Below are positions 2,939-27,485 of a stretch of DNA of 64,000 nucleotides, in pieces. Numbering within the stretch: position 1 is the stretch's first letter; every line of letters starts with the position of its first letter. The position numbers and the translations under genes were made by a program. The DNA lies in assembly GCA_021432635.1 (NCBI GenBank), contig MU270038.1, forward strand, positions 62,001 to 126,000, read 5' to 3'. Source of the DNA: Thozetella sp. PMI_491. Its lineage: Eukaryota; Ascomycota; Sordariomycetes; Chaetosphaeriales; Chaetosphaeriaceae. Below the pieces are notes generated by a model that saw only the letters and a list, made by a program, of their open reading frames with translations, was not told where the DNA came from and searched no databases.

Positions 2939-4680
2939 GGCGGGCAGAGTGTGATGTGAGAGGCTGCACTGCCGGTATAAAGCGGGCTGTCAAAGCTGGC
3001 GAGGAGAACAAGTCGTCGACCAAGTCCGACGCCCAGAACGCGCGATATTTTTGAGGGGTTTTGTTGAAGACCAGTTCCTTGTTTTATGTGGACAGTGACA
3101 GGTATGAAAAGTGCGATCGTGGTGACCGGCAGTTGGGGGGGGGTTGTGTGTGTACGTGTTGGTCTCAGGCGCTGCCTTGGGGGTGGGAGAGTAGTATTCT
3201 AATGTGAAATCGAGGCCAGCCCGGAGGGGGGGAAATTTGCACTAAGTTGAACCGATTGCCCCAAGCGAATGACGAGACCCGCTAATGCGATGGACCTTCA
3301 AGGTGCAATAAATCGGCAGTAGGGGGATCTGGCTGGTCGCAAGAGTGGAGCGCGGAGCCGTCCACAACAATGCGCGGTCGCTGGAGCTTCCAGGCCAAGT
3401 GAGAGCGTTGGGTGATTGTGTGCGTGCGAAAGCCGAGCTTCGGGCAGGCGATGGAAACAATAGGCCGAAGGGTGTGATTAAATTTTTTTTTTGCTGTCCG
3501 CAGCAACGAAACGAAACCAATCAACAGGAATTCCGAGCAAGGCTGGGCATCAGGCAGGCACAGGGCAAGCAAGTGCGAGGATGGACAGAGCTTTGCGACG
3601 GATCGTGTCTGATGTGTTGATGTCCAAGGGCGCCGAGGAGGGATGATGTGCCTCTAGGGTAGCCCGACGGGGAGACGGCGTGTTGGATGGGCAGTTGGGA
3701 AAAAATAAAAAAGAATAAAAAGGCCAAGGTTTATGTGCAGCTCCCGGAAGAAGGGCGCACGGCAGGGCACACAATACACAAGAGAGGCAGAGAGGTGCAA
3801 AACGGGTCCTCCTGCGATAGACACAGAATGAGAGGGAGAGTTGAGAAAAAGAGATCTCAAGAGAGTGCCGTTGACATTGGGGAGGGCGGGCCCCGGGGGG
3901 GTTTAATGAATTCGCTCGGGGGGGTGGGAAGGGGGGACCTTCGAGGTGGGAAGGGGTGGGAAGCGAAGGGCCTCAGATGGGCCAATAGCCTGCCGGCGGT
4001 AGGTGGTAGCAGAGCTGCAGTAGCGGGGGGCGCTCGGGGCGGAGGGCAGGCAAGTGCAGGCAAGTGGGAGAGAGGATCACGGGCGACAGAGCAGAAAGAG
4101 GGAAAGGGCAGATCGATGGGCGAGCGCACCGACCACCACAACCAGCACCCGCCACCCTTCCCTCGTCCCTCGTCCCTCGTCCCCCCCGGTCTGCCGTACA
4201 GTATGCGCCCGGCCAAAGTACACGGTAAGCCCAGCTACTGCTGTTGCTTTGCTTGTGAGCTGCACTCGCTCGCTCGCCCAAATGCCCGCGGTGAGAACGG
4301 GCCACACCAGGGGAGTGACGAGAGCGAGTCGCACACAGGGACAAGAGAGCCTGGCGCGGAGCGACAGGGCAAGCGGGCAAAGAAAGACATGCAGGAAAAT
4401 AAAAAAGAACATGGGCAGAACGACGGCGACGTATTGGCACCCCAGCAGACGCCGAATGCTCTTCCCCTTCCTACAGTGGGACAATTGAGCGCCTACCTCT
4501 CCTGCATCCCTCTTTTACTAGGTCGCCCAGAGAGCGCTGCCCATTCACAGGTCGCCCGCGTCTTGCTTGCTTCTGCGTTGTCGCTAGCTCTCCTCACCGT
4601 TTGGGGGGTGTTGCTATCACATCGCTAACACACGCCTATTCTTAGCTGAGCCATCTGTTCCGGTTGATAGGTCATCCTGG
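2939..4680. other. STE12 upstream region; G-rich, no gene seen
   Basis: This is the promoter and leader side of STE12. It contains many G runs on the plus strand (for example 3126-3144 and 3880-3960), so the STE12 sense strand is C-rich. One frame is open for 313 codons (3687-4628, plus), but it is compositionally a G/A-rich artefact with no recognisable domain. No protein-coding gene is supported. Confidence 0.5.
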
Positions 4681-21500: not shown

Positions 21501-24086
21501 CGGCTCGGAGTCGGGTCACATCGTACAAACGGTATTGGACTGCCTCAATAAGATGATGCCAGCGTACCGGAGCAACAAGGACCTGAAGATCGATCCTTCA
21601 GTAGGACATGGCGATATCCTAGCTACTTGCATCCAGAAGTCGTCTAGCCCGAGCGTGATCAACGAGGCGCTTCTACTCGTTGCCAGCCTCGCAAGAGTCG
21701 CTCCCGACGTCGTCTTGCACAGCGTAATGCCCATCTTCACTTTTATGGGCAGCTCCCTGCTGAAGCGTGCCGACGAGTACTCCGCCTTTGTGGTCAAGCG
21801 GACCATCACGGAGGTCATTCCTCCTTTGATCGACACATTCCGCAAGAGCCGAAGGAGCTTGGTTTCGAGTGCATCCGAGCTCCTCTCCAGCTTCGTCGTC
21901 GCCTACGAACACATTCCTTCTCACCGCAAACATGACATCTTCACCTCTCTGATCGAGAACCTAGGTCCCGCTGAATTCCTCTTCGCGGTGCTTGCCATGT
22001 TTGTGGACAGATATGGGACAACGGATAACATTGTCTCATTCGTTTCGGAAGTTGTGAATGCGTTCTCTGTCGAAGTCCAGTTGCAGACCTTGATCAAGTT
22101 GGTGGACCTGGCTGCAGACACGTTCAGGCCCAAGCCTGTGTTGTCTACTGTGCTCCTCGGAAAGAACGATAATGAGGAGAACGACATGCAGAAGAGTGCG
22201 CTTAAGGTGTTAACTCTACTGCCTCGTCTCCTCGCCAACCGCCGTATGCGGAGAGAGATCAACAAGCTGGCCGAGAGAGACGACATGGAGGCTGGCAGGA
22301 TCCGGGATCTGTACGCGAATCTACTAGAGGATATATTGGCTCTCGCGACGACGGTCAAGGGGAAGAAGGCTTTCTACAGCCGTTGCGAGGATGCTCTGGG
22401 AAACCTCTTGAATTTGCTCTCCATCGGCGAGTTCATCAAGAGCGTCGAGACTCTGCTCGATCGACCCAACATTACATTGCGCCAGAAAGTCCTGCGTGCC
22501 CTTGAAATGCGTGTCGACAACGAGAGCACCGCTGATCCGACGTCCAGGACTGCCTTGCTGGCTTTCTTACCCCAGCTGACGGCGGTCATCCGGGAGTCAG
22601 ACGATGTCGACTACAAGCGCACGGCAGTCACATGTGTTGACAAGATTGCCGAGAAGTACGGCAAGAAAGACCTAGAGGCTGTCGCAGCCGCCGCTGCCAC
22701 TATTGCCGGCGACCAATGTCTTGGTCAGCCGGTTGAACACCTACGAATCATGGCCCTTCTCTGCCTGGCCTCCCTTGTTGAGGTGCTGCAAGACAGTATC
22801 GTGCCTGTTCTACCCCTTGCCGTTCCAAAGGCCCTCGACTACTTGCAATTGAGTCTCGACAAGGAAACTCCCGACCTCGAATTGCACAATGCTTCGTACG
22901 CCTTCATTACCTCCTTGACCCAGCACCTGCCGTTTATAATCTCGGACAAGTACCTGGACCGTATTCTTCTCTACTCAGGTCTCTCTGCAGTTGCCGGGGT
23001 GGATGAGGATGCGGCGTCAAACCGCCGACAGTGCCTTCAGTTCCTTGCGAAGCTGATCGATGCAAAGGTTATGTTCACGGCGCTGGAGCGCAACTGGGAG
23101 AAAATTGCAAGCTCTGGCTTCCGGGTAAGTCTCATGTCGCGTTTACAGCTAGAGAGAACATCTTGCTAACTCGCTCGCAGGCTATTGCTGAATATTTAGA
23201 GGTCCTGGGCTTGGCTATTGACAAGCATCCCAAGTCGTCCATTTCGAGGAATGCCGCCCCTCTATCCCGGATCTTTTTTGCTGCGCTTGATCTCCGCAGA
23301 GTGGCTAGAGCTAGAGAATCTAGGGATGACGAAGTTGCAACCAGACTCGACGAGCTCGAGGTGGTGACCAACGAAGTAGCCTTGAAGATGATCTACAAGC
23401 TGAACGACGCTACTTTCCGGCCCATGTTCTCCGATCTCATTGAGTGGGCGACTTCAGGCCTTCCCAAGAGTGACACTGTTGGTAGGACGCTGCGGTTGGA
23501 GAGTGTCTATGGGTTCTTGGAAGCTTTCTTTGGGAGCCTCAGATCCATCGTTACGAGCTATTCTTCTTATGTTTTCGAAGGGGCGACCGATATCCTCAAG
23601 AACGCGGACATTGGCGACGCTGATCAGCAGGAGCTGTGGAAACGCGTGCTCAAGACTCTTACCAAGTCTTTTGAACACGACCAGGACAGCTTCTGGCAAG
23701 CGCCTTCGCACTTCAGCGTCGTCGCGCCTGTTCTAGTCCAGCAGTTCTTGCGTGCTGACGCCGTCGACACATTCGCAGTGCTCACGCCCGCGATCGTTGA
23801 GCTGGCAGTCGCAGCGGACTCTCGTGAGCATCAGAAGGAGCTCAATACCTCCATGCTAAAGTTGTTGCGGCACGAAGCTGCGGCGGTACGACTGTCAGTC
23901 ATCAGGTGTGAACAAGCCCTGGCGGAGCGCCTAGGCGAGGAGTGGCTGCAGACGCTGCCCGAGATGCTCCCGTATATTAGCGAGCTTCAAGACGACGACG
24001 ACGAGGCAGTGGAACGAGAGAACAGACGCTGGATTGTGCGGATCGAGGAAACACTTGGGGAAAATCTAGACGCCATGTTGCAGTAG
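18594..24086 (+). CDS. utp10: U3 snoRNA-associated protein 10 (Utp10/HEATR1), SSU processome subunit
   Basis: Exons 18594-18970, 19026-23124 and 23181-24086 give 1,793 aa, the usual size for fungal Utp10. The N-terminus is diagnostic (SLAAQLAQIAANSKAGLN, then KAQKSAHSKSLIWE). The first 55-bp intron restores RRFRIHEFNTATLIMTFLPY across the junction. The rest is an alpha-helical HEAT-repeat solenoid, with a region like the Utp10 N-terminal domain around residues 230-350 and a BP28CT-type domain towards the C-terminus (from about residue 1500). A basic loop (HKRRRVSM) interrupts the solenoid near residue 755. In the family the protein is part of the t-UTP/UtpA complex, binds nascent pre-rRNA in the nucleolus, and supports rDNA transcription and 18S rRNA processing. 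The stop codon is only 43 bp before the TA flanking the candidate inverted-repeat element. Confidence 0.96.
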
Positions 24087-24131
24087 TCTCCCGGGGGGGT
24101 GGCTTGGCCTGCCGCATTGAGGATCATTGTA

Positions 24132-24155
24132 CAATTTCGTTCAGGTTCAACGTCC
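24132..24155 (+). repeat. Left 24-bp terminal inverted repeat of the candidate element
   Basis: Begins CAATTTCGTTCAGG and ends CAACGTCC. It differs from the reverse complement of the right copy at positions 2 and 19. TA lies immediately outside. Confidence 0.6.
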
Positions 24156-24239
24156 ACTGCCATCATGTACAAAATGTTTCCAGAGTGGGTCATAGTGGGG
24201 CAGGGGACAGTGTGCGAATTCCGGTCGAAAGTACCGCAG

Positions 24240-24955
24240 TCAATTCACCCTTAACAAATTTCATAATTCTTGTGCTTAGAGACCTTGGAGCAGAGCCAAC
24301 CACAATAGATTTGTGGCACCTCATCTTCCGGGATTGGTATGTTTAGGCGACTTGGGCAGTCCTCCTTCCCCTGACCTTTAGCTGTCTCATCCTAGTGCCC
24401 ATGACAGTAGACATGGACAGGCGACTGATCAGATGCTTTCCGCTTTCACTGTCTACGCGCTGATTCCTCCCCTTTGTGCCTGCATATCACCTCACGGATA
24501 CCTTCAAGCACGTCATTATGCCACTCCAACTTATTTCCTTCTTCAGGATAGTCGAGCAGTCGGTTTATAATGTCGGAGACAAGTCTATGATGCTTTTTGC
24601 TCTCTGGATCCCGCCAGCAGGAAAATTATCGGTTGGGGCATGCGGCGCTGGAACACTCTACTAGCTTATAGACCTCATTCAGACTCCCTGAAGCCTCTTG
24701 CTCTGCAATAAGCTTATCTCTCGCAGCCAGCTGCCTCCTCGTAGCCCTGCGACCTGTCTTGCTTGTCTCCTTGACAGCTTCTGGGTTTTCTTTGTAAATG
24801 AAGATGAGCGTGACCTCGAGGCTGTTTCCTTGATTGCCCTAAGACCTTGATTTATTCTCTACAATCGCCCATTCAATCTTCAGTTTGTTGAGGCGTTTTG
24901 GGAAGTCGCGCTCGTTGCGTTTCGAACAGCCAGCAGAGCCTATTGAGTGCCTCAT
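24240..24955 (-). pseudogene. Broken gene of a repetitive fungal family of unknown function
   Basis: From an ATG at 24955 one minus-strand frame gives protein-like sequence interrupted by stops. Segments include RDFPKRLNKLKIEWAIVENK, VTLIFIYKENPEAVKETSK, SLNEVYKLVECSSAACPNR, CWRDPESKKHHRLVSD and EGNKLEWHNDVLEGIREVIC. Further on, SRLNIPIPEDEVPQIYCGWL appears. The order, including a Cys-rich CP..CWRDP..KKH block followed by H-x-D-V and I-R-E, matches my recollection of a multicopy hypothetical-protein family in filamentous fungi. I cannot name the family or its function. At least four in-frame stops make it non-functional. It lies inside the candidate inverted-repeat element, pointing at its left end. 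Confidence 0.5.
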
Positions 24956-25391
24956 GGCTACTGCCGTACGGCGGAAGGACCTCCTTGTAACCTTGTATGG
25001 CCTTCCCCCTACCTAACCTTGACAGTGGGTAGATCTGGCTCTTTTCGGTTGCACTGATTGCAGGGTCGATTTGGTATGTGGCTCTGGATCAGCCACCCAC
25101 CTTGAGCCGTGGATCTCCCTCTGGTATTTAGCTTTTTAGGACAGAGTTTAGTTTTCGGAAGTAGGAAGGGCAACAAGATTTAAAACCTCCTTCTCGCGGC
25201 AGATATCCTCCACATCCACTGCACTTTTTTCTCATCCCACCCACGAGAACCCATAAGATAACCACCACTGCACAAGTTTATGGTTGCCCTAGATATAAGA
25301 CTGTGGACATCTTCTTTCTTACCCCTGCGGCAAAACATTTATACCCCTGATTTCTAGACACTACTACAGCACAGCTATGGTTTAGATCATT

Positions 25392-25735
25392 ATGGCTATA
25401 AATTCGCTATTTACCCCTGTTCGGCAAATATGGAGGGACTACAAATTTGGGCGTGCTACCCGCCAAAAGAACAGCAATAAGACAAATGCTAAACCTAAAG
25501 AAGAGACGAAGAGCGAGGGAAAAACCGGTGCAACGACAATACGCCGATAGGTCAACCCTTTGACGCGGAGAGACAAGGGTGTAAAACGCCATCCTCTACA
25601 GGAGTATGGCAGTACCGAGCAGATGGAGAATTTCCCTGGCGCTTCGAGCAGATCGTCCGGGAGGAGAGCAACTGGCGTGGGACTTGGGTGCTTGAGATAA
25701 AGGATATGCAAGCGATGGAGTGGGGGATAGTATGA
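25392..25735 (+). pseudogene. Unidentified coding-like remnant, two frames
   Basis: An ATG at 25392 opens a 52-codon frame (MAINSLFTPVRQIWRDYKFG, then a Lys/Asn/Glu-rich tail) ending at 25550. A second frame then continues to a stop at 25735 and reads, in part, GVWQYRADGEFPWRFEQIVR and WVLEIKDMQAMEWGIV. Residue composition and the Trp-rich blocks look like real protein, so this may be a frameshifted gene or two exons. I do not recognise the family. Confidence 0.3.
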
Positions 25736-25998
25736 GTGCCTAAGGAAAACTCACGTGGCGGCAGGTACTAAAGAAAACCAATATGTCACTTAGCATTCCT
25801 GTTTGAAGGGCCAAGTTATACTCTGCTTCCGTCCGAAGGAGGACAGGATGATTTGATGGTCTGGCTAGGGAAATCTTAAGATAGTAACCTAAAGAGGAGC
25901 CTTGACACGTCCTATGTTTATGGCTCTCGGAGGTAAGACACTATGTTTATTGGCCCACTCGAGGACCTGCGGACTGATCCTCTCCCGATACGCTTCTC

Positions 25999-26470
25999 CT
26001 ACCGCTTATCGCTGGCGGCGATGATGCGAAAACTATATTCTTGGGCCTCTGTCTTGTCGCCTTGCCTCCAGCCTGCCGAGTAGACCTCTTCGTGCTCGTC
26101 AGCGAACAGGAAGGCCTGGCTCAGGCGGATAGTCTCCTCGACATTCCGGCCTACGGGCAAGTCGTTGACGGTGCTCTGGTGCAGGACGCTTTTGGGGCCG
26201 ATGATGAAGAGGCCACGCAGCGCCACGCCCTCCTCCTCGAGAAGGACGTTGTATTCAGGAGAGATCTGCTGGTTGTGGGGAGCTCAAGGTGCGAGCCCGG
26301 CCACTCTTCTTCCGGAGCTGCGTCTGCCACCCCAGGTGGCTGTAGTGGCTGTCGGCGGAGATGGTGAGCACCTTGGTGCTGATAGCGTGGAAGCGTAGCA
26401 GGGCGACGTTTAATGGATGATATCTGTGGGGCAGATGAAGCTGAAGTTCATATAATAGAAGATTAAGACG
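25999..26470 (-). pseudogene. 2-Cys peroxiredoxin pseudogene (C-terminal two-thirds)
   Basis: Reading the minus strand from 26469 gives VLIFYYMNFSFICPTDII, the peroxidatic-cysteine region of typical 2-Cys peroxiredoxins (family pattern FYP-x-D-F-x-F-V-C-P-T-E). The catalytic Cys codon is at 26433-26431. A stop follows at once; after a frameshift comes HAISTKVLTISADSHYSHLG. After another shift comes ISPEYNVLLEEEGVALRGLF, then VNDLPVGRNVEETIRLSQAF and DEHEEVYSAGW. In family members the last block is GEVCPAGW; here the resolving cysteine is replaced by Tyr. At least two frameshifts, one stop, a missing N-terminal third and a lost resolving Cys show it is dead. It sits inside the candidate inverted-repeat element. 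Confidence 0.85.
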
Positions 26471-26931
26471 CACCTGCGACTTAGGCTGGTCCTAAGCGAC
26501 AGAAGGTGTATTGTACATCAACGTGATTTTGTACCTGGCTAAAGTATTGTAACACGAAGAGAGGGGGGACTGTTGGTCTTTATTGCCCGGGGTAGTAGAC
26601 ACACTATTCGATACTAATGGCAAGAATGCATTTGGGTAGAGCCAATACGTACGACAGATCGATACGTATAACCAAGAAGCTATCTTTGAAAACACCTAAG
26701 CATATGGTATAGCTAGGTCATGGTTGGGGATAAGTTGAGGAAGAGGGTCACTGTTGTCACGATCACGATCCCTACAGTGCCGGCTTTAGCCTAGTGAAGG
26801 CGGCCGGCAGGAGCTAGGCGAAAAGAACGTATATGCTGCTAATAAAAGGAAAGAAATAAACGGGAGGGAATGCGTTCGCAGTAAAACTAGCTTATTTGTG
26901 CCCGCTGGCACATTTTGGAGTTTGCTGCCTT

Positions 26932-26932
<1 letters not shown>

Positions 26933-26982
<50 letters not shown>
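26933..26982. repeat. 50-base poly-C homopolymer
   Basis: Uninterrupted run of 50 C residues in the candidate element. True length is doubtful in any assembly. The complementary strand is a G tract with quadruplex potential. Confidence 0.9.
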
Positions 26983-26983
<1 letters not shown>

Positions 26984-27459
26984 AGCCAACTCCCCGATGT
27001 CGGTCGCCGACCAGCCCGGAGCTGGCTGGGGCTCAACTTCCTGCCGAAATGGGACCGATCTCATGCGGCTCGTGGCAGTCGAGGGCAAGAAATTATATTA
27101 GATAGTCAGGAACAGAATATCACGAGATATCAGCCATAGAACCACCCCGCGTCATCATGGAAAGCCAACTCGATATCAACCTATTGACATGCTCGCACTA
27201 GGTAGACCTCCGTTAGTCCTGGCTCATCGGAGCCTTGCTCTTAACGGCCGGTGAAACCTTAGAAAAAGTGGCTCGCGAGTGTGTGGCGGCCTGATACCCA
27301 AGCCACTTACAGGCTGGAGGAATCAAAAGTACTGTACTCGAACCCTCTGTCTCAAGCGCTGTTAAGGCTGAAAGGGATGATGACACAGTGTTAATAATTT
27401 ACACACTGTTGCTGACCATTTCTGGCTCTTGCCAAGAATTTTTCGACACATCCACGGGC

Positions 27460-27483
27460 GGACGCTGAACCTGAACGAAATAG
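27460..27483 (-). repeat. Right 24-bp terminal inverted repeat of the candidate element
   Basis: On the minus strand it begins CTATTTCGTTCAGG and ends CAGCGTCC. It matches the left copy at 22 of 24 positions and is followed on the plus strand by TA (27484-27485). Confidence 0.6.
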
Positions 27484-27485
27484 TA

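Follow-up and report, generated by a model that had tools for sequence, protein, structure and literature searches.

Analysis of a 64,000-nucleotide stretch from the ascomycete Thozetella sp. PMI_491 (contig MU270038.1, positions 62,001 to 126,000; hereafter the window) revealed a 3356-bp element that is bounded by inverted repeats with TA at both ends, lies between a UTP10 gene and a P-type ATPase gene, and belongs to a multi-copy family with terminal repeats of about 95 bp and a cargo that differs between members. Throughout, coordinates without a prefix are window positions and C-numbers denote contigs of the host genome, the window element being the C24 copy. A repeat search of the window delimited two arms of 26 nt (24130-24155 and 27460-27485), complementary at 24 of 26 positions (92%) and separated by a spacer of 3304 nt, with TA as the outermost two bases of the element at both ends. 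An earlier note on this DNA had described repeats of 24 bp with 22 matches and TA directly outside, which is the same structure once the outer TA is counted in. Nowhere else in the window do two 26-mers less than 6 kb apart form an inverted pair with two mismatches or fewer, and none of 1540 first-order Markov sequences derived from it (0/40 and 0/1500) contained a comparable pair, so the chance of about 1 percent given in the earlier note was too pessimistic. When the two ends of the element were compared with each other, the outer 26 bp alone stood out (next best match 13 bp, E 0.10), and a comparison of the two junctions gave no exact direct repeat other than TA itself. The following features were delimited:

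24130..27485, no strand: whole element of 3356 bp, counting the outermost TA on either side; the second full-length copy, on C3, has the same end bases, and the flanks of the two are unlike each other.
24130..24155, plus strand: left terminal inverted repeat, outer 26-bp core starting with TA, from the repeat search and the end comparison.
24130..24226, plus strand: left terminal repeat in its full, imperfect extent (nhmmer profile positions 1-96, E 7e-21, this end being itself among the nine sequences of the profile).
24987..25240, plus strand: block common to the C3 copy (84%), which in C3 begins 3 bases past the end of a Crypton-like fragment.
25352..25903, plus strand: core block common to the C3 copy (82%) and partly to a C4 copy, by alignment; a 162-aa frame is open here in C3 and broken by stops in the window.
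26051..26462, minus strand: peroxiredoxin (AhpC-TSA) exon fragment with a broken frame, 77% identical in DNA to the host gene at C40:366984-367410; an overlapping piece lies in the C3 copy.
26470..26929, plus strand: two abutting blocks common to the C3 copy (77% and 83%), by alignment.
26977..27058, plus strand: block common to the C3 copy (83%), by alignment.
27300..27485, plus strand: right terminal block, 76% identical in the C3 copy and, over part of its length, 75% identical at C42:198977-199102, by alignment.
27389..27485, minus strand: right terminal repeat in its full, imperfect extent (nhmmer profile positions 1-97, E 4e-23, this end likewise being among the nine sequences of the profile).
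27460..27485, minus strand: right terminal inverted repeat, outer 26-bp core ending with TA, from the repeat search and the end comparison.

Searching the genome (72.3 Mb, 157 contigs) with the window element revealed a second full-length copy of 4,800 bp at C3:1278110-1282909, in which similarity extends from element base 1 to base 3356 through nine aligned blocks of 76-84% identity with unaligned stretches between them. An additional right end was found at C42:198977-199102, and C4:201972-202477 proved to be related to the core, a family terminus lying at C4:202657. No Pfam family matches the 162-aa frame in the core of the C3 copy; beyond the C3, C24 and C4 copies, this frame gave two weak protein matches only (E 0.004 and 0.008). 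When the 150-bp flanks of seven elements were joined through TA and searched against the genome, all 14 matches fell on the elements' own loci, indicating that the copies sit at unrelated places. A run of 50 C at 26933-26982 lies inside the window element between the blocks that end at 26929 and resume at 26977; the same blocks abut in C3.

An alignment of nine ends and the profile built from it matched over 97 positions, which places the family terminal repeat at about 95 bp and shows it to be imperfect; the repeats begin TA-C[A/T][G/A]T...CAGGTTCAGCGTCC. In a comparison of the first 12 ends, all of which had been found via a pattern or a similarity starting with TAC, no conservation was seen outside TAC. 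A genome-wide search with an IUPAC terminus pattern (TACNRTNNNGTNCAGGTTCARYGTCYRC, at most three mismatches) returned 64 matches, 32 per strand, against a single match for the reversed pattern that served as control; 15, 12, 15 and 22 of the 64 carried zero, one, two and three mismatches, respectively. Neighbouring termini formed 23 pairs within 6 kb, of which 17 were convergent and the other orientations were represented by two pairs each, whereas random placement yielded a mean of 0.087 convergent pairs and a maximum of 2 in 2000 draws. As the pattern derives from ends that were known beforehand, it recovers those by construction, and seed ends with known partners account for three of the 17 pairs (C24, C3 and C42:332363-334386). 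Together with the full C3 copy, these convergent pairs give a positive outcome to the check proposed in the earlier note, a search for further inverted termini 1-5 kb apart. Individual pairs measure between 286 and 4800 bp and the 17 together 41,397 bp; nine of them were fetched end to end (C24, C3, C41, C42:332363, C42:370304, C17:269435, C111, C57 and C39). Two weak ends of the first pattern were compared with the profile, where C46 scored E 0.048 and C36 was absent at E 10; C46 was left out of the element count despite a HET match 0.8 kb inside. In the C57 element, 29 bp of the left arm (positions 173-201 of the fetched sequence) coincide exactly with the inner portion of the repeat at the right end, which might point to copying or conversion of one terminus.

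All nine fetched elements carry TA at both ends. If TA is counted as flanking sequence, it alone forms an exact direct repeat in 9/9, and if it is counted as part of the element, no exact direct repeat remains in 9/9; a longer exact target duplication was absent from all nine. With one mismatch allowed at the junctions, isolated agreements of 4 bp appeared in C24, C57 and C42:332363, which we take as chance. After the TA, the 18 ends read CTGT in eight cases, CAGT in three, CTAT and CAAT in two each, and TTGT, ATGT and CTGA in one each, so that 11 of 18 termini show CTGT or CAGT. TA is the target duplication of Mariner elements (PMC8903248), and we read the TA here in the same way, although it could instead be part of the terminus. 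The terminal inverted repeats agree with those expected of the Tc1/mariner-pogo group. The 8-bp target duplication that is the hallmark of hAT elements (PMC8903248; PMC6710886) was found at none of the nine elements. Domain searches of the genome returned 27 DDE_1 matches, 26 of them with in-frame stops, and eight DDE_3 matches. All of these fell outside the 17 convergent pairs and at more than 10 kb from any of them, in line with a non-autonomous family, and a selection of open frames from the window, C3, C42, C111 and C57 elements contained no transposase domain. The family probably works like Tc1/mariner-pogo elements; as no member with a transposase was found, membership is not claimed. 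The earlier note's assignment to Tc1/mariner is tentative: the TA flanks fit it, and 11 of the 18 termini have CTGT or CAGT, but the window element's own terminal bases differ (see below) and no transposase-bearing member was found.

Between their termini, the elements hold pieces of host genes whose parents stand elsewhere in the genome, as in Pack-TYPE transposons. The open frame at C40:366984-367410, with AhpC-TSA and 1-cysPrx_C domains, is a host peroxiredoxin gene, and its counterpart in the window element is antisense and broken. The C3 copy contains a piece 79% identical to the C40 gene over 279 bp, which overlaps the window piece and occupies the same place in the order of shared blocks, indicating that the fragment was present before the two copies separated and has moved with the element; the unrelated flanks of C24 and C3 complete this picture of a captured piece that travels with its carrier. 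The second host parent is found at C42:269013-269363, which encodes a protein ending in SRL that we take to be HEX-1-like. The element at C57:435954-438120 holds 351 bp that are 83% identical to it, with 14, 8 and 39 mismatches at the three codon positions (117 of each) and one stop in the C57 copy; a 70-aa piece of this protein, compared with Pfam, gave no match. In a sibling at C24:748139-749872, the match to the C57 element breaks off at 1357 and is taken up again at 1732 after 12 bp; the HEX-1-like piece is lacking there, and a gain in C57 would be the simplest reading of the alignment. The aligned captured pieces each lie within single open exons. Among the nine fetched elements, HET frames occur in three, the peroxiredoxin piece in two and the HEX-1-like piece in one, with nothing recognised in the remaining three (C111, where the best Pfam match is below its cut-off, C42:332363, and the 286-bp C39, which was left out of the family scan).

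Repeat-induced point mutation (RIP) indices were calculated for eight elements and are mixed. The usual cut-offs are 0.89 for TA/AT and 1.03 for the substrate index. TA/AT ranged from 0.77 to 1.18, with four elements above the cut-off (C24 0.95, C3 1.01, C57 1.07 and C42:332363 1.18) and C17 at 0.89, and the substrate index, at 1.06 to 1.32, lay above 1.03; the elements may have undergone mild RIP.

The family consists of dispersed mobile units whose boundaries agree to the base, whose ends converge and carry TA (in nine elements), and which contain captured exon pieces, one of which has moved along with its element. The window element is most probably an old DNA transposon of this family, non-autonomous, mobilised by a Tc1/mariner-pogo transposase in trans and subject to Pack-TYPE-like capture. 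A transposase supplied in trans would recognise the termini and move whatever lies between them, and the TA at the ends suggests that this enzyme most likely came from the TA-targeting Tc1/mariner-pogo group. During the repair that follows excision or transposition, the family would acquire fragments of host genes and of other transposons. The peroxiredoxin piece predates the separation of the window and C3 copies and has moved with the element. The capture itself we infer to have taken place during break repair. The earlier note's picture of a decayed transposable element that lacks a transposase and contains host-like coding DNA, between inverted repeats with TA flanks, is borne out. The multi-copy nature of the family, its repeat of about 95 bp and a cargo that varies from member to member go beyond that note.

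Several observations weigh against this reading. No transposase with these termini was found, hAT, Mutator, PIF/Harbinger and other transposases not having been searched for; the absence of a transposase of their own, as in Pack-TYPE elements, accordingly refers to DDE_1 and DDE_3, and any enzyme of either type must work in trans or have been lost. The window element's termini continue after TA with CAAT and CTAT, unlike the CAGT of classical Tc1/mariner members. The terminus pattern starts with TAC, so that TA at the ends found by it was partly selected for, and a few of the 22 termini with three mismatches are perhaps due to chance. A paralogous empty site, sought in the same genome with the TA-joined flanks of the seven elements, was not found. 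The pair with and without the HEX-1-like piece could reflect a loss in C24 rather than a gain in C57. Finally, the C41 sequence includes 905 N, and the remaining eight of the 17 pairs are known by their coordinates.

Two other origins of the elements were considered. In the C3 copy, positions 295-1257, in the left part of the element and pointing inwards, correspond to the C-terminal part of a Crypton-type recombinase (match at C10:1377153-1378364), and this fragment ends just before the block common to the window element, which starts at 1260. At C2:1684174-1684573, pieces of the Crypton fragment and of the window-shared block follow each other in the same order, suggesting that this block, and hence the window element, may hold Crypton-derived DNA. 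Since HET and NLR (NOD-like receptor)-type genes are known Starship cargo (PMC9594970), the elements could accordingly be remnants of a Crypton/Starship-type tyrosine-recombinase element, with the C3 fragment as its own recombinase and the host genes as ordinary cargo. We regard this as quite improbable and rejected it as the main explanation, as the recombinase appears only as a C-terminal fragment and similarity to the Crypton protein (E <= 0.01) was detected in only one of ten element sequences searched and not in the window element, while the family is bounded by inverted repeats of about 95 bp that carry TA, with no direct repeat beyond them. The C10 Crypton, moreover, has no family terminus in the 5.5 kb examined, which stops at the contig end. 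The recombinase at this locus (C10:1375614-1378274, near the contig end) lies in three adjoining open frames with NDC10_II, NDC10_II and GCR1_C domains. Segmental duplication of a host region with incidental inverted repeats would account for two stretches, C24 and C3, that share blocks at 76-84% identity and contain host coding DNA. However, the similarity starts and stops exactly at the termini and the flanks are unrelated, and the 17 convergent pairs, with interiors that in the compared elements are mostly without similarity beyond the ends, argue strongly against it; on the strength of the shared exact boundaries and the convergent pairs, segmental duplication was rejected and is, in our view, barely credible.

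The status of the HET genes as cargo of the transposon family is less settled. HET frames are bracketed at C42:370304-374070 (401 aa, together with an ankyrin frame), C17:269435-273067 (466 aa) and C41:233113-237262 (HET and NB-ARC), and a HET match with a 712-aa open frame lies in C38:465933-468989, known by coordinates only. The genome contains 440 first-look HET-domain candidates, of which 150 were scored and all 150 exceeded the cut-off; this is a very large allorecognition gene repertoire. HET matches occur in four of the 17 pairs versus 0.25 expected from the 440 candidates (Poisson P 1.4e-4), or, with the 150 scored matches only, in two pairs versus 0.086 expected (P 0.0035); neither P value allows for regional clustering, both were calculated post hoc, after the HET frames had been noticed, and eight of the 17 pairs were checked against the 150 scored matches only. 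By inference, some members may carry their HET genes as mobile cargo. Yet the HET genes might not have been captured, short elements having inserted independently on either side of them, or both might merely occupy the same fast-evolving regions, and we hold this to be possible, if short of an even chance. Consistent with it are the sheer number of HET candidates, the post hoc count, and the C17 element, which has no DNA match elsewhere in the genome but a terminus and thus counts against a demonstrated mobility of HET genes. Tandem left termini stand 118 bp apart at C42:370304-370422, the inner one aligning better with the right end, and six family termini crowd into 4.7 kb around the HET gene at C38:465933-470617, suggesting nested or tandem elements; both arrangements also suit independent insertion. 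Against it, in the three HET pairs that were read, a left and a right terminus bracket the HET gene and not two complete short elements, the number of pairs with a HET match exceeds expectation, and the peroxiredoxin piece, for its part, is carried along by its element. A bolder proposal, which we put forward as a rather doubtful conjecture, is that TA-flanked elements shuttle whole HET or HET-NB-ARC genes, which would be copied, moved and reassorted singly and so feed the HET repertoire, and that the unlike interiors may hinder mutual recognition for RIP.

At its insertion site, the left neighbour of the window element carries the UTP10-type Pfam domains U3snoRNP10 and BP28CT, and the right neighbour is, according to Pfam, a P-type ATPase on the minus strand, both as named in the earlier note. 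The UTP10 frame stops at 24086, leaving 43 bp to the left end of the element, the distance that had been reported. Within UTP10 (23031-24086), the reading frame differs after 23169, indicating an intron or a frame change near 23030-23170.

A fungal family with several captured sequences, including one element with and one without its exon piece, offers a natural series for studying capture. If HET genes are indeed mobile cargo, the family would provide a concrete route for the turnover of allorecognition genes, directly testable with population data. Gene capture by small cut-and-paste elements has been documented mainly in plants. The mimp (miniature impala) elements of Fusarium are short, non-autonomous Tc1/mariner-type elements with inverted repeats and TA that lie beside effector genes, and the present elements resemble them as non-autonomous inverted-repeat elements near fast-evolving genes; in contrast to mimps, the genes here lie between the termini. 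The closest parallel is the Pack-Mariner (Pack-TYPE) group of rice, which is likewise non-autonomous, with inverted repeats, TA flanks, captured gene pieces, members with and without them, and mostly low copy numbers (PMC8903248). Unlike Pack-Mariner, which that paper describes in plants (PMC8903248), the present family is fungal, has termini of about 95 bp and includes members with open HET-type frames rather than fragments. Known fungal cases of gene capture that we found are Helitrons and the hAT elements that transduplicated histone H3 (PMC3538342; PMC6710886), the latter being, like the present family, fungal DNA transposons with a captured housekeeping gene. There, an 8-bp duplication is present and one captured gene was amplified to many copies (PMC3538342; PMC6710886), whereas the family described here is flanked by TA, has no transposase found with it, and combines several captured sequences with a low copy number. 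The hAT capture in P. fijiensis looked like that of a transcript or retrocopy (PMC6710886), a distinction that the present pieces, lying within single exons, do not allow. With the giant Starships of ascomycetes, of which HET-type genes are cargo (PMC9594970), and with Cryptons, the family shares ascomycete mobile DNA with HET-type content and, in one copy, a Crypton piece; it differs in being far smaller, in its TA-flanked inverted termini and in that the searched elements lack a recombinase of their own. A literature search that went without most subscription journals returned no publication on Pack-TYPE transposons in Ascomycota or on the capture of heterokaryon incompatibility genes by transposable elements, and in one fungal paper (PMC10853768) the term 'Pack-TYPE' occurs in the reference list only. 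Set beside these systems, the elements form a fungal, TA-flanked, gene-capturing family that is not a new category and is distinguished by its unusual HET content.

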